Positions 391 through 41,207 of a stretch of DNA of 43,682 nucleotides are shown here, piece by piece. The notes under the pieces are model-generated. The model saw nothing but the letters and a program-made list of their open reading frames with translations. It searched no databases and was not told the origin of the DNA. Each line of letters begins with the position of its first letter. The stretch's first letter is position 1. Source of the DNA: Chloroflexota bacterium (GTDB lineage: Bacteria > Chloroflexota > Dehalococcoidia > Lucifugimonadales > UBA3495); contig VXOH01000138.1 in NCBI GenBank assembly GCA_009840135.1, positions 1 through 43,682 on the forward strand, read 5' to 3'. A program made the position numbers and the translations under genes.

Positions 391-2310
391 ATGAGTAACG
401 CTTCTGAAACCATCCAAAAACGTTCATCCTACAGGCTGCCCACGCACCGGGGGGAACGGATAAGACTGGCCCCTCATCAGATGTCGCCGGATCCGAAAGA
501 CAAGGATGCTGTGCGCAGGTGGTTGGAAGAACGCCCACGCCCTTGGGCAATAGACCTCTTCTGTGGAGCTGGTGGGTTGAGCTTGGGACTTGAGGAGGAG
601 GGATTCTCAGTGGTGGCTGCCGCGGATGCCGATCAGGTGGCAACAGAGACTCACGCGGCGAACATTCATGGACTCACTTGGACGGGCGACCTATCCGACC
701 CCAGTGAGTTCATTCGCCAGTTGGATGATTGGGGAATAGAGGAGGTGGATCTTCTTGCGGGCGGGCCTCCATGCCAGCCCTTCTCCACCGCTGGCATGTC
801 GAAGATTGGTGACCTTGTGAGGAGAGGGGACCGCTCTCCCCGTGACGAAAGGGCTGACCTTTGGCGCAGTTTCTTCGCCATCGTTGACCGTTTAAACCCA
901 AGAGCGATGCTCTTCGAAAATGTTCCGAACTTCGCCCAAGCCCAAGGTGGAGCGTTGTTGATCGCTTTGCTGGACGAACTGAAAGGTCGGGGATACGGAG
1001 CACATGTAGAGGTTTTGGAAGCATGGCGATACCGCGTTCCACAGCATCGGTCTCGGTTATTTGTGATTGGGATTGCGGAAGAAGGGAACTTTGAATGGCC
1101 CAAGCCGATAAAAGGGCGACCCACGGTAGGGCAGGTCATTGGGGATCTTCCAGTGGTGGAGGCGGGTGTCCGAGACGAAGTCCAAGGCTACAAAGGCCCT
1201 CCGGAATCGGTGCTTGGCAGGTTGCTCCGAAAGGGCCTAACCCACCCGGAATCCCAGCTTATTCGTGATCACGTGACGAGGTCAGTACGTCCTGACGATG
1301 CGGAAATCTATAAGCTGCTGAAGCCTGGTGGCACGTACATGGACGTACCGGAACACCTGCGAAGATACCGGTCTGATACTTTCAGCGACAAATACCTGAG
1401 GCTATCTTTCGAAGACCTTTCTAGGACCATTACTGCCCATATCGCCAAGGATGGCTACTGGTACATCCACCCGAGGGAAGACCGAACTCTGTCCATACGA
1501 GAGGCGGCAAGAATTCAGACGTTCCCAGATAGGTTCCGGTTTGCTGGTCAACCCTCCAACAGATACCGTCAGATCGGTAACGCCGTACCGCCACTGCTTG
1601 CCTCGGCGATTGCCTCGGCGGTAAAGGATGCCCTAGAAGACAGAATTCCAGTCGCTGGAACCACTGGGCGCCAGCCCAAGAGCGTCGGACACCTCCGAGA
1701 TAATCTCTCCAGATGGTTCGGGCAAAGCAAACGCGACTTCCCTTGGAGGCGTCTACGATTGAGCCCCTGGCAGATTCTGCTATTGGAAATGTGTCTACAC
1801 CGCACCAAAGCTGAGCAGGTGGCTCGGGTTGCGGACAAGCTCCTCAGCCTCGGTGAAACACCGGATTCGTTTCTGAGCAACTCAAGAGACCTGGCACCGG
1901 TGTTGTCGTCGCTTGGTCTCCACTGGCGCTCAGTGAACCTTGCCTCGGCTGCAGAGTTCGTCAGAGACCGGCTGGCTGGAGAGGTTCCAGACAATTGGCA
2001 AGAGCTCACGGCCATCCCAGGTGTGGGAGACTACATAGCCTCCGCCGTTCTGTGTTTCGCATTCGGGCGGCCCAGTGTGCTGATGGACACAAACACAGTG
2101 CGAATAGCACGCCGTCTGCTGGGAAGCTCCGACCAACCAAACTGGCAGCTCAGGCTGGCCCTGCACAAGTTGGCTGGGCCCAGGGGAGCGGATGTTGAAT
2201 GGAACCAGGCACTGCTGGACCTGGGTGCGTTGGTCTGCACGGCCCGCGCTCCCAAGTGCGGGGAATGCCCCATTCGAGCCTACTGCAAGACGGGAACGGA
2301 GATGAGCTAA
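391..2310 (+). CDS. C5-cytosine DNA methyltransferase fused to C-terminal HhH-GPD (MIG/MutY-like) DNA glycosylase
   Basis: MTase motifs FCGAGGLSLGL (I), GGPPCQPFS (IV), ENV (VI), QHRSRLFVIG (VIII), RQIGNAVPPLLA (X). C-terminal FPWRRLRLSPWQILLLEMCLHRT, HhH IPGVGDYIASAV, Asp in VLMDTNTVRIARR, and FeS loop C-x6-C-x2-C-x5-C (CTARAPKCGECPIRAYC). Alternative start at 481. Confidence 0.95.
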   Translation: MSNASETIQKRSSYRLPTHRGERIRLAPHQMSPDPKDKDAVRRWLEERPRPWAIDLFCGAGGLSLGLEEEGFSVVAAADADQVATETHAANIHGLTWTGDLSDPSEFIRQLDDWGIEEVDLLAGGPPCQPFSTAGMSKIGDLVRRGDRSPRDERADLWRSFFAIVDRLNPRAMLFENVPNFAQAQGGALLIALLDELKGRGYGAHVEVLEAWRYRVPQHRSRLFVIGIAEEGNFEWPKPIKGRPTVGQVIGDLPVVEAGVRDEVQGYKGPPESVLGRLLRKGLTHPESQLIRDHVTRSVRPDDAEIYKLLKPGGTYMDVPEHLRRYRSDTFSDKYLRLSFEDLSRTITAHIAKDGYWYIHPREDRTLSIREAARIQTFPDRFRFAGQPSNRYRQIGNAVPPLLASAIASAVKDALEDRIPVAGTTGRQPKSVGHLRDNLSRWFGQSKRDFPWRRLRLSPWQILLLEMCLHRTKAEQVARVADKLLSLGETPDSFLSNSRDLAPVLSSLGLHWRSVNLASAAEFVRDRLAGEVPDNWQELTAIPGVGDYIASAVLCFAFGRPSVLMDTNTVRIARRLLGSSDQPNWQLRLALHKLAGPRGADVEWNQALLDLGALVCTARAPKCGECPIRAYCKTGTEMS

Positions 2311-3779
2311 TGCAGGTCGTTGAAATCCCACCCAAGCCATCTCCACTCATCGAGAGCATTCGTGCAATCGGGTATTCGTTGAGCACCGCTCTCGCTGACC
2401 TCGTGGACAATTGCATTGTGGCACGGGCGGAGACCATCCAGATACTCGCCAGCCAGGAAACACCCGACTTGAAGATTGGCATACTGGATGACGGAATTGG
2501 AATGACCGAAGCGGAACTCTTGGAGGCCATGCGATTGGGAAGCCGCAGCCCGCTGGAGGAGAGGCCAGAGTCCGACCTCGGCCGCTTTGGTCTCGGCCTG
2601 AAGACGGCCTCATTCTCCCAATGTCGGGTGCTCACAGTTGTGAGCCGGACCAACGGAGCGACCGCGACTGCTCGTTGGAACCTGGACCACATCGCGGAGT
2701 CTGGAAAGTGGCAAGTCCAGATCCTTGACGATACGACATCAATCCCCTGGATGGAACATCTCGGTTCGAGTGGGACACTCGTGGTCTGGGAGCAACTCGG
2801 TCTCGGCACGGACAGCCAAGATTCGAGTCGGCATGTGGCCGACTTTGTCCGTCAGTTGGATGAGGCTCGGTCCCACCTGGAGTTGGTATTCCACCGTTTC
2901 CTCTCCGGTGAACCCGGACGCCGCAGGGTCCGGATAGAGATGAACAATCGGCCCCTGGAACCCTTCGATCCGTTTAATTCCAGACATCCGGCGACCATCG
3001 CAGGTCCTGAAGAACTGATTCGAGTCGCAAATGAGGACGTTCTTGTGAAGGCCTTTACCCTTCCGCACCACAGCAGAGTCACGCCTGCGGAATGGGAACG
3101 CTACGCAGGACCGGAGGGCTATCTCAGGAACCAAGGTTTTTACGTCTACAGGGAACGGCGCTTGATCATCCACGGCACCTGGTTTGGATTGGCGCGTCAA
3201 GCTGAGCTCACGAAGTTGGCGCGCGTCCGCATAGATATGCCGAACTCCCTCGATGGGGCCTGGAAGATTGATGTGAAGAAAGCATCTGCACAGTTGCCAC
3301 CGCCGGTTCGAGATCGGCTGCGTCGCATCATCGAACCGCTGGGAGCGGCGTCGAAGAGGGTGTACAGGACAAGAGGACGAAAGCTCATCGAGGAGAATCG
3401 CATTCCGGTTTGGAGCAGGATTCAAAATAAAAACCAGATCTCCTATCGAATCAACGATGAGCACCCCATGGTCCTCAACCTACTTTCCAGATTGCCCCCC
3501 GAGGCAAGAGGCGACCTCCTGAGGGTGATCGAAGTCGCGGGGGCTTCGCTACCCATGGATGCGTTGTTCGCCGACCTGGGCGGCGACACCGCCTCGTTGG
3601 TCGGCGCTGCAACCTCGGAACAGGCGCTGCGATATGCGGCCGTGACAACGTTCGCCCATCTCAACAAGACGGTGAAGTCAGTGGAGGATGTGCTCACCAT
3701 GATGAGAGTTGCGGAGCCCTTCCGCTCGAATTGGGAGCGCACGGAGCAGATTCTCAGTGAGGACCGTAATGGCAAGTGA
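2310..3779 (+). CDS. GHKL (MORC/MutL-like) ATPase of restriction-like defence system
   Basis: N-box-like ALADLVDNCIVARA, GILDDGIGM, GRFGLGLKTASFS. ATG at 2310 overlaps the TAA of the upstream gene (TAATG). ORF track start at 2199 is too long. Confidence 0.9.
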   Translation: MQVVEIPPKPSPLIESIRAIGYSLSTALADLVDNCIVARAETIQILASQETPDLKIGILDDGIGMTEAELLEAMRLGSRSPLEERPESDLGRFGLGLKTASFSQCRVLTVVSRTNGATATARWNLDHIAESGKWQVQILDDTTSIPWMEHLGSSGTLVVWEQLGLGTDSQDSSRHVADFVRQLDEARSHLELVFHRFLSGEPGRRRVRIEMNNRPLEPFDPFNSRHPATIAGPEELIRVANEDVLVKAFTLPHHSRVTPAEWERYAGPEGYLRNQGFYVYRERRLIIHGTWFGLARQAELTKLARVRIDMPNSLDGAWKIDVKKASAQLPPPVRDRLRRIIEPLGAASKRVYRTRGRKLIEENRIPVWSRIQNKNQISYRINDEHPMVLNLLSRLPPEARGDLLRVIEVAGASLPMDALFADLGGDTASLVGAATSEQALRYAAVTTFAHLNKTVKSVEDVLTMMRVAEPFRSNWERTEQILSEDRNGK

Positions 3780-6504
3780 CAGCATGAATGACCCACTATC
3801 AGACCTCGAGAGCATGGTATCCGCCGCTCTCGCCAATCAGCAGGAGCCCACTGCCGAGAGCATCCGCGAGCTCATTGGGAATCTCCGCCAGTTGCCCATG
3901 TTCGAAAGCATCTCCGGCGATGACGCGGAAAGGCTTGCGAAGCGTCTCGAAGAACGTGTCAGCATCACCCAAAACCTCGGCTCCATTTTGATCGAACGTG
4001 ACCACACGCCTTGGCTGGACGCTGCCAGGGCGCGAATAGACCCGTACTACTGGAGTCGCTATCGCCGGCACCTCATCAGGGATGGCCTTCCCACAGCGGC
4101 AATCAACGCTTTGGATGACGTCACGGATCGCGTGCTCGGACTGATGCAGGACCCCCTCAGGGATGGCCCTTGGGATAGACGTGGGATGGTTGTTGGGCAT
4201 GTGCAGTCGGGAAAGACGGCCAACTACACCGGGCTCATCTGCAAGGCCGCAGATGCAGGGTATAAGCTGATCGTCGTCATCGCGGGTGTCCACAACAATC
4301 TGCGAAGCCAGACGCAGCGACGCATCGATGAGGGATTCGTCGGCAGAGACAGCGCGCGTTTGTTGAGCAGGCAGGATGACATGTACGTGGGAGTTGGTCG
4401 ATTCGATCACACGAGGCGCCCTGTCACATTCACCAACACGATACGGGATTTCAATAAAGCGACGGCGACAGGTGTCGGAATACCGCTCCAGAACCTGACC
4501 GAGCCTGCGGTGTTCGTGATCAAGAAGAACAGCAGCACTTTGAAGAATATGCTCGAGTGGCTAAGGGAGCACAGTGCACGGGGAGGCGGTGAGAGCATTG
4601 ATGAACCCATGTTACTCATCGACGACGAGGCTGACAACGCTTCCATCAACATCCGACATGGGGCGGGCGAAGTCTCGAGAATCAACGGACAGATTCGTGA
4701 CCTCCTCCGCATGTTCGACAGAAGTTGCTATGTGGGGTACACAGCCACACCCTTCGCCAACATCTTCATCGACCCTGACACCGACGATCAAATGCGCGGC
4801 GAGGACCTGTTCCCCCGCAGCTTCATCGTGAGTCTTGATCCTCCATCGAATTACTTCGGAGCCACTACAGTCTTTCTTGACGCCGGAGAACAGTACATCC
4901 GCAACATCGAGGACAACGAGGATTACCTTCCCATCAGACATCAGATTGGCATCACTCTCTCCTCCATACCCCCATCTCTCGCCGAATCCGTCAGAGCCTT
5001 CATTTTGGGCCGAGCAATTCGGCTCGCCAGAGGACACGAAGGGCAGCACTGTTCAATGCTGGTGAACGCATCGCGCTTCACGAACGTACAGCGCCAGCTG
5101 CGAAATGAGATTCACGGCTTGCTGGATGGTATACAACGCTCCATCAGGGTGAACGGAGCGTTGCCGCCTGAAACAGCGCTTCTTGACCCGGAGATCGATG
5201 CACTTTACGCGGTTTGGGAACGCGAGTTTGGCGACACGGAATTCGAGTGGGCCCAGGTGCAGAGTCGCCTACTTGAAGCTGCCTCTCCCATCAGGGTGGT
5301 CGAGGTGAACAGCCAGTCCCCCGGCACCCTGGACTACACCGGAAATCGGCAGGACGGTCTGAATGTTATAGCGGTTGGCGGCTTTTCGCTGTCACGTGGG
5401 CTGACGCTCGAGGGACTCATGGTCAGTTACTTCCTCCGCAACTCGATGATGTATGACACCTTGATGCAGATGGGGCGGTGGTTCGGATACCGGCCCGATT
5501 ACCAGGACCTGTGCCGCATATGGATGCCGGAAGCGGCGCAGGGTTGGTATGAGCACATAGCGGAGTCCATAGAGGAGTTGCGGAGTGAGCTGAGGAGCAT
5601 GGAGGCGTCCAATGCGACGCCTGAGGAATTCGGTCTGAAGGTCAGGAGGCATCCAGATTCCCTGATCGTTACGGCACGCAATAAGATGGGATCCGGGTCT
5701 TCAATAGTGGTGAGCATCGGTCTCTCATTCAGCCTGATCGAAACGCATACTCTACGAAGAGACGACGAGAGCTTGCGGACCAATCGGAATGCCGCGCGTA
5801 GGCTCGCCAGTCGGCTTGGGCAGGTTGGATTCCCAATTGACGCTGCCGAGAGAGTGGAGTTTGGATTCCTCCTTAGGGGCGTTCCGGTGGCACCCATCCT
5901 GGACTTCCTCACTGAATTTCAAAATCACCCCGGCTCGCTGAAGACCGACGGGGGACCCGTCAGACGATACATAGAGGAACGTCAAGGCGACGAGCTTGCG
6001 GAATGGGACGTCCTATTCGCGGCTGTGGGAGAGCGTGAGGGCAATATAACTGACGACTCGCTCGGAAGGGAAATCAACTGCCAGCGAAGGACTGCCCGAA
6101 AGAGCGGCGATGCAAGTACACTTCTGGTCAGTAGCCGGCAGAGGGTATCGACCAGAGGGATTGAGAGAACGGGCCTCACCAGTGAGCAAAGATCATCAGC
6201 GGAGGAGGCCTACAGGGATGAGTTGGAGAAGACTGGCAGATTAACGGAGGGCGGTAGAGTCCAGTACCCAGACTGGGCATACAGAAGAAAGAGGACCAAG
6301 CCCCTCCTGATGATACATCTGATTGATGTTCAGCCCAATGGATCGGACGAACCCCCGAATCACCCGGTGGCTGCATGGGGCATTAGCTTCCCCGGCACAC
6401 AACGGGAGGAGCGCCGGGTGGAATACTTGGTTAACACCACATGGCTCCGAGAGAACTTCGCCGATGATGTCGACGAGGATGAGATGGAAGGCGATGATGG
6501 GTAG
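3769..6504 (+). CDS. Z1-domain helicase/ATPase (endonuclease-associated)
   Basis: Walker A GHVQSGKTANYTGL, DEAD-like LLIDDEADNASIN, YVGYTATPFANIFIDP, characteristic of the Z1 family. ATG 3769 overlaps the upstream stop codon. Confidence 0.9.
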   Translation: MASDSMNDPLSDLESMVSAALANQQEPTAESIRELIGNLRQLPMFESISGDDAERLAKRLEERVSITQNLGSILIERDHTPWLDAARARIDPYYWSRYRRHLIRDGLPTAAINALDDVTDRVLGLMQDPLRDGPWDRRGMVVGHVQSGKTANYTGLICKAADAGYKLIVVIAGVHNNLRSQTQRRIDEGFVGRDSARLLSRQDDMYVGVGRFDHTRRPVTFTNTIRDFNKATATGVGIPLQNLTEPAVFVIKKNSSTLKNMLEWLREHSARGGGESIDEPMLLIDDEADNASINIRHGAGEVSRINGQIRDLLRMFDRSCYVGYTATPFANIFIDPDTDDQMRGEDLFPRSFIVSLDPPSNYFGATTVFLDAGEQYIRNIEDNEDYLPIRHQIGITLSSIPPSLAESVRAFILGRAIRLARGHEGQHCSMLVNASRFTNVQRQLRNEIHGLLDGIQRSIRVNGALPPETALLDPEIDALYAVWEREFGDTEFEWAQVQSRLLEAASPIRVVEVNSQSPGTLDYTGNRQDGLNVIAVGGFSLSRGLTLEGLMVSYFLRNSMMYDTLMQMGRWFGYRPDYQDLCRIWMPEAAQGWYEHIAESIEELRSELRSMEASNATPEEFGLKVRRHPDSLIVTARNKMGSGSSIVVSIGLSFSLIETHTLRRDDESLRTNRNAARRLASRLGQVGFPIDAAERVEFGFLLRGVPVAPILDFLTEFQNHPGSLKTDGGPVRRYIEERQGDELAEWDVLFAAVGEREGNITDDSLGREINCQRRTARKSGDASTLLVSSRQRVSTRGIERTGLTSEQRSSAEEAYRDELEKTGRLTEGGRVQYPDWAYRRKRTKPLLMIHLIDVQPNGSDEPPNHPVAAWGISFPGTQREERRVEYLVNTTWLRENFADDVDEDEMEGDDG

Positions 6505-7486
6505 GGACCCTTGGGAGGAGATTGACACGCCCAGCATTGCCGACTCAGTTGCGGCTCGTCGTGTCGATGCGAACCTGCCTTGGAATTTCTTCTGGGCTAG
6601 GGGTGTGGACGGAAGAGTTCTACTCACATTGCGCCATGCCACCGACTCGGCACCAACCGCTCGGCTGCCGAGGCTGCGCGACATTGAAGTGACCCTTTCG
6701 CCCCCCGATGAGGCGGACACGCAACTCCTCGCTTTCAAATTGCTTGACTCGAACCAACGGGACATCTTTCGGACGCTATGTGAGGACATCATCTCCGCTG
6801 CATCGCAGGCCAGGTCGGAGGTTGGAGCAGTGTCCGCTGCGCTGATGAGGACATGGCGATGGCACCATCTGCTAAGAGGCGGTCGTGGCACCCTTCTTTC
6901 CCCTGAGGAACAGATGGGACTGCTCGGAGAGCTGTTCGTGTTGGAGCGTCTGCTACTGCCCAGAATGGATGCCACATCTGCGTTGACGGCATGGCGCGGG
7001 CCGCTGGGCGCCCCCAAAGACTTTGAGATCGCGAGAATAGCAATTGAGGCAAAGACGCGTCGCGGGGGCGCCATCCCGTCTCTCTCAATAACATCAGAGA
7101 GCCAACTGGACGAGGGCGGCGTGGACTCACTATTTCTGCATGTTGTGGAGTTGGATGAGGCTCCGATGGATGGCACCCAAGGTATCACCCTCAACGACGT
7201 GGCTGAGCGGATTCGCCATCACATCCTCTCGCTAGACCCTGGGTCAACCGCTATTTTTGAGGCGCGGCTCTCGGCGGCGGGCTACAGGATGGAGGACGAC
7301 TACTCCAGCCACCACTGGCTGGAGGGGGCGGTCCGGATCTATCTGGTGTCCGGCAGTTTTCCCCGCATCACCTCGGGTGAGATGCGCCCCGGAGTCTCAA
7401 ATGTACGTTACTCAGTCTCGCTGGCCGACTGCGAACCCTTCGCGACCTCGGTGAGCGTTCTGGAAAACGCCCTTGCAGGAGGATAG
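6494..7486 (+). CDS. PD-(D/E)XK motif protein (DUF4420-like)
   Basis: Position between Z1 and AIPR genes; KDFEIARIAIEAKTRRG fits a D...ExK nuclease core. Start 6494/6497 overlaps the Z1 stop. Confidence 0.82.
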   Translation: MMGRDPWEEIDTPSIADSVAARRVDANLPWNFFWARGVDGRVLLTLRHATDSAPTARLPRLRDIEVTLSPPDEADTQLLAFKLLDSNQRDIFRTLCEDIISAASQARSEVGAVSAALMRTWRWHHLLRGGRGTLLSPEEQMGLLGELFVLERLLLPRMDATSALTAWRGPLGAPKDFEIARIAIEAKTRRGGAIPSLSITSESQLDEGGVDSLFLHVVELDEAPMDGTQGITLNDVAERIRHHILSLDPGSTAIFEARLSAAGYRMEDDYSSHHWLEGAVRIYLVSGSFPRITSGEMRPGVSNVRYSVSLADCEPFATSVSVLENALAGG

Positions 7487-7492
7487 GCGCCG

Positions 7493-9565
7493 ATGGCGAT
7501 TGACATTGCCGAGTACCATGAGGAACTTTTTCAGGAGGTCCACAGCCGCGCAGATGCCGAGGGCAGGTTTGTGGAGGACGCCTTCTTCGACGTGCTCACG
7601 GAATCGCTGATTGATGCCGGTGAGATTGAGACAGCGGACCGGGTTCACTACGTCTCCCCCCGGGGAGTTCGAGTTGACGGCTATGGGGGAGACCCCATCA
7701 CCTCCGACTCTGTACTCAGCCTGATCATCACCGACTTCAGCCAGTCAGAGGAGGTCGTAACGCTGACGGCAACCAACATGAATGCGACCTTCAATCGGTT
7801 GTCCAACTTTCTCGGCCGGTCACTGGACGACGCTTATAGGAACAGCATGGAGGAGTCCGCACCCGTATTCGGTCTAGCCGACCTCATTGCGGCACGGTGG
7901 CCCTCAATATCGAAGGTGAGGCTGTTCCTAGTCACCAACAGAATACTCAGCTCTAGAGTGGACGGCAGAGAGGCCGGTCAGCTTGAGGGGGTCCCCATCA
8001 CGTACAGCGTGTGGGATCTGGGGCGCCTACACCGCTTCATAACGTCTGGGCATGAGCGCGAGGACTACCTGGTCAATCTGCATGAGTTCGGTGCGCCCCT
8101 ACCAGTTCTGCCGGCACACTTGCAGCAGGCCGACTATGAGTCATACCTAGCCGTCTTCCCCGGCCGCCAACTGGCATTGATATATGACCGCTGGGGCGCC
8201 CGTCTCTTGGAGCAGAATGTCCGCGTCTTCCTACAAGCACGTGGAAACGTCAATCGGGGCCTGAGGAACACCATTGCGAACAACCCGGAGATGTTCTTCG
8301 CGTACAACAATGGAATCACGGCCACTGCGGAGAGTATCGAAACAGTTGAGTCTAACAATGGTCTGCTCCTAACGGGCATACGCAACTTCCAGATCGTCAA
8401 CGGCGGACAGACCACGGCGTCCATTCATGCGGCACTGAGAAACAAAGAGGTGGATCTGGATAATGTCTTCGTCCAGATGAAGCTCTCCATCGTGAACTCC
8501 GACAGAGCAATGGAGGTTGTCCCGAAGATTTCGGAGTACGCCAACACACAGAACCGTGTGAGTGCGGCTGACTTCTTCTCGAATCACCCGTTCCACATCA
8601 GGATCGAGGAGTTCTCAAGGAGGCTCTACGCTCCTTCGAAGGATGGGACATTCCGTCAGTCAAAATGGTTTTACGAGCGGGCACGTGGCCAGTATCAGGA
8701 TGCCAGGGGCCGCTTGACCCAGGCGGAACGAAGGAGATTCGACCTGGAATACCCGAAACCTCAGATGTTCACCAAGACGGATCTCGCCAAATTCCTGAAT
8801 GTGTGGCGTGACAAACCGGATGTCGTGAGCAAGGGAGCTCAGAAGAACTTCGCCGACTTCGCCTCGTTCGTCGGGGGAGAGTGGAACAGACACCCCAACG
8901 ATTTCAACGAGATGTACTACCGAGAGGCTGTCGCCAAGGCAATTGTGTTCAGGTCGGTCGAGCGCCTTGTTAGCGAGCAGCCGTGGTACCAGGGCGGTTA
9001 TCGTGCAAATGTCGTGGCCTACGCCATATCCAAACTCGCCCATGATGTGGCTCAGCGCGGCGGTTCAATCAACTTCGAAAAGGTCTGGCGAGCACAGGGA
9101 ATATCGCCTGGACTTCGGGACACGTTGATGGTGAGTGCCAAGGCGGTCCATGATGTGATAGTCGATCCGCCGCATGGAATGCGGAATGTGACCGAGTGGG
9201 GGAAGCAGCAGGCCTGCTGGCATCGAGTGATGGGGCTTCACATATCATGGCCCGATGCCCTGGAAACCGAACTGGTCAGTTCATCGGAGCGGGACGAGGT
9301 GAAAAGGGCTGCCGTCAAGGATCAACAGATGTTGAACGGTATAGAGGCTCAGATGGTGGTGGTCCAAGCTGGGTCCGCTCTTTGGAGTGACGTCAAGGTA
9401 TGGGGAATGTCCAAGGGTCTACTATCGCCGGATGATCAGGGGATACTGGAAGTCGCGATCTCGATGCCAGATAAGGTTCCCTCCGAGAAACAAAGCGTCA
9501 GAACGATTGAGATACTGCAACGTCTCCGTGAGGAGGGGTGTCAGTTGGGGTTAGAAGTCGTGTGA
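7493..9565 (+). CDS. AIPR (abortive infection phage resistance) family protein
   Basis: NVRVFLQARGNVNRGLRNTI..PEMFFAYNNGITATAESI...FQIVNGGQTTASI is the AIPR signature; 6 bp after the preceding stop. Confidence 0.92.
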   Translation: MAIDIAEYHEELFQEVHSRADAEGRFVEDAFFDVLTESLIDAGEIETADRVHYVSPRGVRVDGYGGDPITSDSVLSLIITDFSQSEEVVTLTATNMNATFNRLSNFLGRSLDDAYRNSMEESAPVFGLADLIAARWPSISKVRLFLVTNRILSSRVDGREAGQLEGVPITYSVWDLGRLHRFITSGHEREDYLVNLHEFGAPLPVLPAHLQQADYESYLAVFPGRQLALIYDRWGARLLEQNVRVFLQARGNVNRGLRNTIANNPEMFFAYNNGITATAESIETVESNNGLLLTGIRNFQIVNGGQTTASIHAALRNKEVDLDNVFVQMKLSIVNSDRAMEVVPKISEYANTQNRVSAADFFSNHPFHIRIEEFSRRLYAPSKDGTFRQSKWFYERARGQYQDARGRLTQAERRRFDLEYPKPQMFTKTDLAKFLNVWRDKPDVVSKGAQKNFADFASFVGGEWNRHPNDFNEMYYREAVAKAIVFRSVERLVSEQPWYQGGYRANVVAYAISKLAHDVAQRGGSINFEKVWRAQGISPGLRDTLMVSAKAVHDVIVDPPHGMRNVTEWGKQQACWHRVMGLHISWPDALETELVSSSERDEVKRAAVKDQQMLNGIEAQMVVVQAGSALWSDVKVWGMSKGLLSPDDQGILEVAISMPDKVPSEKQSVRTIEILQRLREEGCQLGLEVV

Positions 9566-33855: not shown

Positions 33856-36800
33856 ATGGGGATTTTCGGATACTTGGTGGTAACTACGGCACTGCTGGTA
33901 GTCGCGGCTCTTGGTCTGGTTGCCTGTGCATCGGAAGAGAGTTCAGAGCCTGTAACCCCACCCTTGCCTACTCCAGATATTCTAGCAACGATAACGGCCG
34001 CCATTCCTACGCCGCCGCCGACTCCCAACATTGCCGCTACCATAGAAGCGGAACGCGACAGGCTCAGGGCAGAATTTCAGTCAACTCTCGTTGCCCGACC
34101 GACTGCCAGGCCCCTCCCCACATCTACTCCATCCCCCACTATGCCGCCCACTCCCTCTCCAGCGCCCACTCCCGCGGCTACTGCAACGCCGATTCCGACG
34201 CCTACTCCCGGAACTCCGGCGGAGGCAGACCGTCATATCCTGGAATCCCTTTATTCAACAACCGGTGGACCGGAGTGGCACAACGCAAAGAATTGGTTGA
34301 GCGACAGCCCCACATCGGAGTGGCATGGCATTACAACCGACGATAGCGGACGCGTAACTGAAATCCGATTGGACAGCAATAACCTGGAAGGAACCCTTCC
34401 CGAGGACTTGAGCCGGCTCCACTTCCTGGCCCACCTCTCTTTGCAGAATAACAGGCTGGCCGGACCGTTTCCGCCGGGAATCGGGGAGCTCACGAGCCTG
34501 GAGACATTGAAGCTAGGCGGGAACTCGTTCACTGGCGGAATACCCTGGGGATTGAGCAACCTGGATAACCTGGAAGAATTGCTGCTTGAGGGCAATCAAC
34601 TCACCGGTCCGATCCCTACTTTCCTGGGCGACCTCTCCGGTCTAAGACACTTGCGGCTGAACGGCAATCAACTGGAGGGGCCCATTCCGCCCGAAACGGG
34701 CAAGCTCTCCAACCTCAGGAGCCTGAACGTCGCCGACAACCGTTTGACCGGGGAGTTGCCGGCAGACCTGGCCGGTTTGATAAACGTATCCAGCTTTAAC
34801 TTTGCCGCAAATCAGGGCCTATGCTCGGGGAGCAATACGGCTTTCCAGGTTTGGCTCAACGGAATTGAAAAGGTGAGTGGCCTTGACTGTGAAGCAGGCG
34901 AAATTGTGCGCGTTGACGCCGCCGATGACGTATCCCGGGAACGCCAGGTCCTGGAAGCGCTTTTTTAATTCAACGGGCGGGCATAACTGGGAGAGAAGCG
35001 GGAATTGGATGAGCGAAAAACCCCTGGGCGAATGGTATGGGGTTGATACCGACAATAGCGGCAGCGTTTTTCGATTATCTCTCAATGGCAATAATCTTTC
35101 GGGCCCGCTGCCACAGCAAATGGGAAACCTGACCGAACTGCGGATATTGTCCCTATCTAATAACAAGCTCCGCGGACAGATACCACCCGAACTGGGGAGC
35201 CTTGTCCGCCTGGAGTACCTGGCGCTTGGCGGTAATGAATTTTCCGGCATCATTCCCCGGGAGTTGGGGCAGCTGACCAGGTTGAATAAGCTGGACCTGG
35301 GTCGGAACAACCTTACCGGTTCCATACCTGCCAGCCTGGGCGAACTTGTCCGGATGGAAACTCTAAGCCTGGCTGGCAACAACCTGACCGGGATTGTCCC
35401 CGCGGAACTGGGCAATCTTCTCTACCTGGGGACCTTCTTCCTGTCGGGCAACCAGCTCTTCGGAGAACTTCCTGAGGAATTTACCAGTCTAAATCAGCTT
35501 TTTCACTTCGAATTTGAACAGAATCTTGGCCTGTGCGCGCCACTGGGCGCTGACTTTCAGGACTGGTTGACCGGGGTCCAAAATGCCCAGGGGCCCAATT
35601 GCAGCCCGGACCAGGCTATATCTCCGCCCCTGCAAGACATCCCGTCAGAGCGAGATGTCCTGGTAGCATTCTACAATTCCACCGGCGGAAGGGGTTGGCG
35701 CAACCAGGAAAACTGGTTGAGCAATCTTCCTTTAAACCAATGGTACGGTGTAAGGACCGATGGACGAGGCCATGTAAGGGAACTGCAACTGGCCAGCAAC
35801 AAGCTGGACGGCCGACTTCCTGCTGATTTGGGACATCTCCCTCACCTTGCCCACCTGCAGCTTCGGGACAACCGGTTGACGGGTTCCATACCCGCCGAGT
35901 TGGGACACGCTTCCAGGCTCCGGACCTTGAACTTGAGCAGCAACAACCTTACGAGTTTTGTTCCCCCACAGCTCAGTAACCTGCAGATGTTGGTCTCAAT
36001 CAATTTTCGGGGCAATCAGCTGACGGGCCCAATTCCTCCGGAACTGGGGTCACTCTCTCGCTTGGGGGAGTTGAATTTGTCCGACAACTCACTTAGCGGC
36101 CCCATTCCCCGGGAATTGGGCAACCTGCCCCAGCTAGGCTACCTGTACCTGGAAGAGACCAACCTGGCGGGAACCATTCCCCCGGAGTTAGGCAACCTTG
36201 CGAAATTGACACAGCTTTCTCTTTCCGGGAACACCCTGACCGGCCGGATTCCCGCCCAACTGGGAAATCTAAGCAACCTCACCATCCTGAATTTGGAGCG
36301 CAACGAGTTAACCGGCCCCATTCCTTCTTCGCTGGGGAATCTGTCCCAACTTCAGGTCCTCAGGCTCCACGATAACCAGCTAAACGGGCCGATTCCCGCA
36401 GAACTGGAAAACCTTTCGGAGTTGTATCATCTATTTCTCTACGAGAACCAGTTACGCGGAAACATTCCTCCGGAATTGGGAAATCTCGCCAGTCTGCTGA
36501 GCCTGAAAGTTCAGAATAACCAGCTTTCGGGCCCCATTCCTCCGGAATTGGGAAATCTTCCCAGATTGGTATTGCTGGATCTGGCCTGAAACTCATTAAC
36601 CGGACCTATTCCGCTGGAAATTACCAGTATCCGGACTCTGACAAGACTGGTGCTGGCCAGCAATCAATTAACCGGGCCCATCCCACCGGAGCTAAGTGAT
36701 CTTCCTGATTTGCGGGTGCTGGCCCTCAGCAATAACCGGTTTACGGGAAGCATTCCTCCCGAATTGGGTAGAATCTACGGGCTGACGAGCCTTAATATTG

Positions 36801-37108
36801 ACACCAACCTCCTCACCGGAACCATTCCGCCGGAACTGGGAAACCTGGCTTCCCTGGAGAGGTTGCAGTTGGGCAGCAACGAACTGGAAGGGCCGGTACC
36901 CACGGAATTTGGGAATCTGCGCAGCATGAAACGCCTGTCCATGTCATCCAACCGGCTTACCGGATCATTACCGGAATCGCTGACTTCACTGACTGAAATG
37001 TACTTTATCTACTTCCAAGGCAATGCGGGGCTTTGCGCGCCGCCCGGTCCTGTGCAATCATGGCTTAAGGGAATTCACAGTGTATTGGGCGACTACTGCT
37101 CAAATTAG
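33856..37108 (+). pseudogene. Plant-type LRR lipoprotein gene, split by T6 frameshift (~34961-34966) and in-frame TGA (36587-36589)
   Basis: ORFs 33856-34968, 34877-36589 and 36650-37108 form one continuous LRR protein when the frame is shifted at T6 and the TGA is read through. Lipobox LVAC; repeats NxLTGxIPxELGNLxxLxxLxL. Confidence 0.8.
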
Positions 37109-40118: not shown

Positions 40119-40172
40119 AGCGGGTAGGATGGAGAGCCCGTTGGGACAAGCAGCGCCGGTATTGAGGTAGTT

Positions 40173-41102
40173 CTAGACTCCGTAAAGCCGAATTGCCCCA
40201 GATTCCGGTATCATCCCGGAAAAAAGCTCCGGGTGAATCATTTCGGCCATGATTTCCAGTCCTACCACCAGGCGGGGACCGGAGCGACTGGTATAGGCTC
40301 CCGCATCAATGGCATATACCCGGTTGTTCTTTACGGCAGGCAAGGACTGCCACCCTTCCATCTCCGAAAGCAGGGGAACATCGTCCAGGGCCCGCTTGAC
40401 GTCAAACCCGCAGGGCATAAATATGATGACTTCGGGCTGGCTGGCCACAACCTCCTCCCACTCCAGCCGGAACGAGCCGGTTTCCTTGTCACCGAAGCAG
40501 TTCTCACCACCGGCCATTTCCACCATCTCCGGCACCCAGTGCCCGCCGCACATCAAAGGGTCAACCCATTCCAGGTGCAGTACGCGGGGACGACGCGAAA
40601 TTTCAGCGGTTCTGGCAACAATGGTATCTATCCGGCCCTGCATCTCCGACGTTATCCTCTCCGCCGCTTCCGTCGCGCCGGTTGCCTGGCCGACCCGACG
40701 GATATCCTCCAGCACGTCGCCGACGTACTGGGGGTCCAGCGAAATTACGTCCGGCTGCTTGGGGAGGCTCACACTGACCTCGGCTACCTGCCGAGAAGAT
40801 ATGGCTCAAACTTCGCAAATGGCCTGGGTCAGCAAGAGGTCCGGCTCCGCCGCTTCCATGGTGGGCTGGTCTATTTCGTAAATGCCCAGTCCCTGCTCCA
40901 GCCGCTCGGAGATGACCCGGCTTATCTCGCCGCTGCTGGGCTGCGGGTCCATCCCTTCAAATACACTGCGAACCACCCACGGCTTTTCTCTGGCCGCCGC
41001 CGGATAGTCGCACTCGTGGGTTACACCGTGAAGTTGGTCCTCCAGACCCAGCACATACACGATCTCCGTGGCGCTGGGCAGAAAAGAGCAAATGCGCATC
41101 AT
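40173..41102 (-). CDS. BtuF-like cobalamin/corrinoid-binding protein with in-frame TGA (candidate selenocysteine)
   Basis: [33 protein letters not shown]...[10 protein letters not shown][TGA][35 protein letters not shown]...[19 protein letters not shown]. Same frame on both sides of the TGA at 40806-40808. Confidence 0.75.
40779..40795 (-). promoter_or_regulatory. Candidate bacterial SECIS-like hairpin
   Basis: Minus strand CTCGGC-AGGTA-GCCGAG, loop starting 16 nt after the TGA; loop has G at position 2. Confidence 0.45.
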
Positions 41103-41207
41103 CCATCTCCTGGGGCCGGTTGAGACCTGACCATTATAAGCCCCGAAGCCCGTTTACCCAACCGCTGGGACGGCATTCCGCTTCAGTTGATTCCGGAGGC
41201 CGAAATA

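Follow-up and report, generated by a model that had tools for sequence, protein, structure and literature searches.

On the minus strand of contig VXOH01000138.1 of a marine, SAR202-type Chloroflexota bacterium, a BtuF-like gene (40170-41102) is crossed by an in-frame TGA. The question raised by this locus is whether that codon is read as selenocysteine (Sec) and, if so, what kind of protein results. The whole contig of 43,682 nucleotides, called the window here, was analyzed together with the rest of its genome (3.45 Mb, 93% complete, a fragmented assembly of 190 contigs) and with related genomes. A sequence-only reading, which gave no strand for the gene, had claimed that the frame is continuous across the TGA at 40806-40808 and that the TGA replaces the second Cys of a conserved pair, giving CxxU. 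Indeed, the TGA was codon 99 of a frame that closes only at its TAG stop codon, and it occupied the place of the second Cys in the TQxxCxxC of the homologues. The motif in the window protein, which has one Sec, is C96-E-V-U99 (Table 1). Standard gene calling would end such BtuF-like Sec proteins at residue 98.

Table 1. Features of the BtuF-like gene and its predicted Sec signal (window positions).
Feature	Position	Strand	Remarks
BtuF-like CDS, predicted selenoprotein	40170..41102	-	309 codons with TGA read as Sec, plus stop; continuous frame
Stop TAG	40170-40172	-	
Start ATG	41102, or 41099	-	41099 better placed after AGGAG
AGGAG, likely ribosome-binding site	41107..41111	-	7 bases before ATG 41099; from sequence
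TGA codon 99, predicted Sec, second position of CxxU	40806..40808	-	TGA in 53 Sec-type, TGC/TGT in 15 Cys-type homologues
Cys96 codon, first position of CxxU	40815..40817	-	invariant column
Cys31 codon (HECDYP)	41010..41012	-	invariant column
His188 codon (GGHW)	40539..40541	-	invariant column; Gln in own-genome paralogue L155
Cys231 codon (MPCGF)	40410..40412	-	invariant column
bSECIS hairpin (predicted)	40779..40795	-	6-bp stem, 40790-40795 with 40779-40784; loop AGGUA, 40785-40789

The same TGA was found in many relatives. A search of 296 related genomes, in which the loci themselves were read, gave 53 homologues with TGA at exactly the corresponding codon, from about 50 separate genomes belonging to the family of the window genome and to two other families of its order. 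Their identity to the window protein was 52-91%; 52 of the 53, those without ambiguous bases, were used in the further analyses, and 47 distinct sequences entered the stem test described below. The 15 nearest Cys-type homologues, also read at their loci, carried TGC or TGT in this column, as the proposed replacement of a Cys implies. Among the listed matches from 400 sampled genomes of the phylum, no further Sec form was seen. A TGA in the Chloroflexota relative G477 was rejected as a Sec codon, being a C-terminal stop and not in the Cys column. Additionally, when 84,980 species genomes were scanned for the TGA-containing motif, 60 stretches were returned, 53 of them on contigs labelled Chloroflexi, Dehalococcoidia or SAR202 cluster. 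Of the others, six were chance matches lacking homology and were discarded; the remaining one was a real homologue (64% identity) in a metagenome-assembled genome (MAG) named “Proteobacteria bacterium.”

The window genome encodes tRNA-Sec with anticodon UCA, selB, selA and selD, all scoring over curated cut-offs. The sequence-only reading had made its case depend on selA, selB, selC and selD in this genome and on the recurrence of the TGA in others, and both were found. Furthermore, selD has an in-frame TGA of its own (SHCAGUAAKI) and, after it, a hairpin whose apex carries GGU, so that the organism seems to produce selenoproteins of at least one established kind. Among the 296 relatives, 223 have selA; no match to it was obtained in two genomes with the Sec gene, which are 87% and 78% complete. 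A phage-type integrase gene adjoins the tRNA-Sec gene of the window genome (L001:135-1593), which suggests that an element integrated there.

A hairpin, CTCGGC-AGGTN-GCCGAG, starts 10 nt after the TGA, with its loop 16 nt after it and a minimum free energy (MFE) of -9.5 kcal/mol for the core. Published rules for bSECIS elements ask for a loop of 3-9 nt, a stem of 4-16 bp, a G within the first two loop positions, a distance of 16-37 nt from the UGA and an MFE of at most -7.5 (PMC13188914). The window hairpin agrees with every one of them (loop 5, stem 6, AGGUA, 16 nt, -9.5 kcal/mol). Since single-window MFE tests were weak, giving unremarkable values for most homologues and thus no information on them, the specific stem was tested instead. 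All six pairs formed in 42 of the 47 distinct Sec sequences (89%) and in none of the 15 Cys sequences, and when codons were redrawn synonymously the stem appeared in 1.9% of sequences, with a maximum of 12.8% in 1000 rounds. The stem codons CGG, CAG, GCC and GAG were nearly frozen, and all four forms occurred for the Val codon that contributes its third base to the loop.

Compensatory changes on both sides were observed at three of the six stem pairs among the Sec homologues, and 97.7% of the alignment cells paired at the true register, against at most 61% with slid partners. The covariation score of a +1 slide was similar to that of the true register, yet only 43% of its cells paired. These statistics come from Sec sequences that are related to one another, but in the rest of the gene many of them have reached or nearly reached saturation at synonymous positions when compared with each other, so common descent explains the frozen stem poorly. 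The SECIS-like 6-bp hairpin with its loop 16 nt after the TGA, noticed in the sequence-only reading, was therefore upheld by its conservation, its covariation and the bSECIS rules. When the own genome was searched for the hairpin core, eight sites were inspected, and only the BtuF-like gene had a TGA at the right distance and in frame. Another regularity concerned the Val codon just before the TGA (40809-40811, minus strand), which was GTT in 48 of the 52 Sec homologues. GTG is the commonest Val codon in the Sec-form genes, and the Cys forms use all four codons at this position. This GTT had no evident pairing partner and is perhaps a context that favors Sec insertion over termination.

On both sides of the TGA, dN was far below dS, and its low value after the TGA indicates that this part is translated and constrained. 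A frame that goes on past the TGA could also mean that the stop is simply read through, or that TGA has been reassigned to Trp or Cys, with no selenium involved. This is highly improbable, given that TGA is an ordinary stop at 10 of the 28 gene ends checked in the window, that the Sec machinery is complete and that the hairpin is absent from the Cys forms; code reassignment was rejected on the first of these grounds. A miscalled TGC or a pseudogene ending at 98 residues, conceivable in so fragmented an assembly, was rejected as virtually impossible in view of the recurrence in about 50 separate genomes, the dN/dS after the TGA and the kept, covarying hairpin. The BtuF-like gene thus very probably encodes a selenoprotein in which TGA-99 is read as Sec, a prediction made from genomic data. 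SelB carrying Sec-tRNA(UCA) would bind the hairpin 16 nt after UGA-99. From the genes, the codon, the hairpin and the selection we infer Sec insertion at this position; the full-length product would be cytoplasmic and have the class III substrate-binding-protein fold.

Two other loci of the window were also noted. A five-gene island at 391-9565 (plus strand) was recognized by PADLOC and Pfam, comprising a cytosine methylase with an endonuclease III-type iron-sulfur motif, MzaB, MzaC (Z1), MzaD (DUF4420) and MzaE (AIPR); it looks like a complete Mza-type anti-phage system. A leucine-rich-repeat protein at 34877-37108 (plus strand) spanned two ORFs (34877-36589 and 36650-37108), which may belong to one gene whose frame is interrupted.

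Regarding the fold, the window protein matched PF01497 (Peripla_BP_2, E=2.9e-25), which encompasses cd01144, and no NCBIfam model scored above its cut-off. The AlphaFold2 model was of high confidence, with a mean pLDDT of 93 and a pTM of 0.91, and its first strand begins at residue 4. Its best PDB matches were class III substrate-binding proteins, namely 4m7o, Vibrio BtuF (5ysc) and the heme-binding RhuT. The class III fold is held in common with E. coli BtuF, the B12-binding protein of BtuCD-F (hhalign probability 97%). Hence, the label “BtuF-like” given by the sequence-only reading was right for the fold (PF01497; 4m7o, 5ysc), but no support was found for a role in B12 import. Cys31, Cys96, Cys/Sec99, His188-Trp189 and Cys231 were invariant and recurred in a paralogue (37% identity) from the same genome; in another such paralogue, L155, the Cys residues are kept and position 188 is Gln. 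In the alignment, the invariant Cys, Sec and His residues fall on loops bordering the ligand cleft, and the CxxU pair is inserted there, right behind the position of BtuF W85.

Is it conceivable that this protein binds corrinoid or heme in the cytoplasm through an axial Sec or Cys ligand, in which case “cobalamin-binding” would be right in substance? The structural matches to BtuF and heme-binding proteins and the place of CxxU next to the corrin-contacting W85 point this way, as does BtuM, for which PMC6072759 describes a Cys as axial ligand of the B12 cobalt. Nevertheless, of the corrin-contacting aromatics of E. coli BtuF (Y50, W66, W85, F162, F168, W196; PMC5269720), five out of six were replaced by non-aromatics (Y50/E30, W85/Q93, F162/E178, F168/M184, W196/S210), and only W66 aligned with an aromatic, Phe48, in a gappy stretch. 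The window protein is marked instead by its invariant Cys, Sec and His residues, with CxxU in an insertion. Furthermore, a search of the 93%-complete genome gave no FecCD permease (PF01032, the type that partners BtuF), for which 13 of 14 control genomes were positive. Cytoplasmic corrinoid or heme binding is accordingly a minority possibility, of perhaps one chance in four.

That the protein serves a B12 or iron-complex importer, as E. coli BtuF does, is much less probable still. This role is favored by the fold and by automatic naming, but the negative permease search speaks against it, as do the lack of a signal peptide, residue 3 aligning with residue 25 of the BtuF precursor, and the gene neighborhood. 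Among the conserved neighbors, the commonest being a LON-domain protein and a sodium/hydrogen exchanger, no transporter gene was recognized and no function was indicated. A role in B12 import is therefore not supported, and the data argue that the automatic annotation “cobalamin-binding protein” is misleading for this cytoplasmic branch. The reading that we prefer is that CxxU and the invariant Cys31, His188 and Cys231 would form a cleft site lined by thiols and a selenol. Such a site may bind a soft metal or a metallo-cofactor, or perform redox chemistry. This proposal has about an even chance of being correct.

The history of the Sec codon was followed in a maximum-likelihood tree of 69 sequences, in which the Sec forms were a single clade (support 100/97) nested among the Cys forms. 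The Cys/Sec state changed once in all 200 bootstrap trees, and with midpoint rooting a change from Cys to Sec is the natural reading of these sequences. Most likely, an ancestral Cys gave way to Sec a single time, in a SAR202-type Chloroflexota lineage, the Sec clade being essentially SAR202/Dehalococcoidia. Orthology of the two forms was supported by a common context, with a LON-domain gene and coaX/coaBC-like genes beside a Sec form (G016) and two Cys forms (G115, G063). Since selA is widespread in the relatives, including the genomes of these two Cys orthologues, the switch occurred where Sec was already in use. The Cys-type orthologues of the same order (e.g., G115, G063, G139, G099; 50-55% identity) have the same fold and the same invariant residues, but differ in having TGC instead of TGA and no hairpin. 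Such close relatives make a natural Cys/Sec comparison possible.

The homologue in the “Proteobacteria bacterium” MAG (F1-120-MAGs186, L111:4700-5670, minus strand) was a Sec form with an identical hairpin, and this MAG has a selA fragment at a contig end. Its sequence groups within the SAR202-type clade (91/90), pointing to a horizontally transferred gene or to a MAG with the wrong label. Additionally, four genomes (L053, L054, L055, L056) carried a second, diverged Sec paralogue (61-67% identity) that forms its own branch within the Sec clade. Taken as a whole, the scenario is that a cytoplasmic branch of the class III fold, misnamed BtuF, left transport and became a thiol/selenol protein or enzyme handling soft metals or metallo-cofactors. 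In what was once the ligand cleft, Sec would act as key ligand or nucleophile; it would have been acquired from Cys once in the SAR202-type lineage and kept. We regard the scenario as evenly poised between right and wrong.

The sequence-only reading was mistaken in taking the Sec form of this family to be undescribed. “Cobalamin-binding protein BtuF, cd01144, CxxU” is listed as a predicted selenoprotein in a review of 2022 (example RUA21600.1; PMC9312934) and again in Table 1 of a review of 2026 (example MDE0719563.1; PMC13188914). Each review gives credit to Peng et al. 2016 (PMC5029168); the protein is not treated in the main text of that paper. In the literature found, no description of its SECIS, distribution or function was encountered. 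The listed family agrees with the window protein in name, fold, CxxU motif and single Sec, BtuF being among the PDB matches of the latter; likened in this way by description, the two probably differ in nothing essential. The selenoprotein prediction is therefore sound, but it is no novelty, the family having been predicted before. Two other selenoproteins of substrate-binding type, the ABC proteins SaoX and SaoB, belong to different families (NF040735 and NF040727) and have different motifs (UxP and CUxxT); the Sec of SaoB has been suggested to act as a metal ligand (PMC13188914). To what was a single line in catalogues, the present analysis adds quantitative evidence for a covarying SECIS, a single origin, a distribution in SAR202-type Chloroflexota and a case against B12 import.
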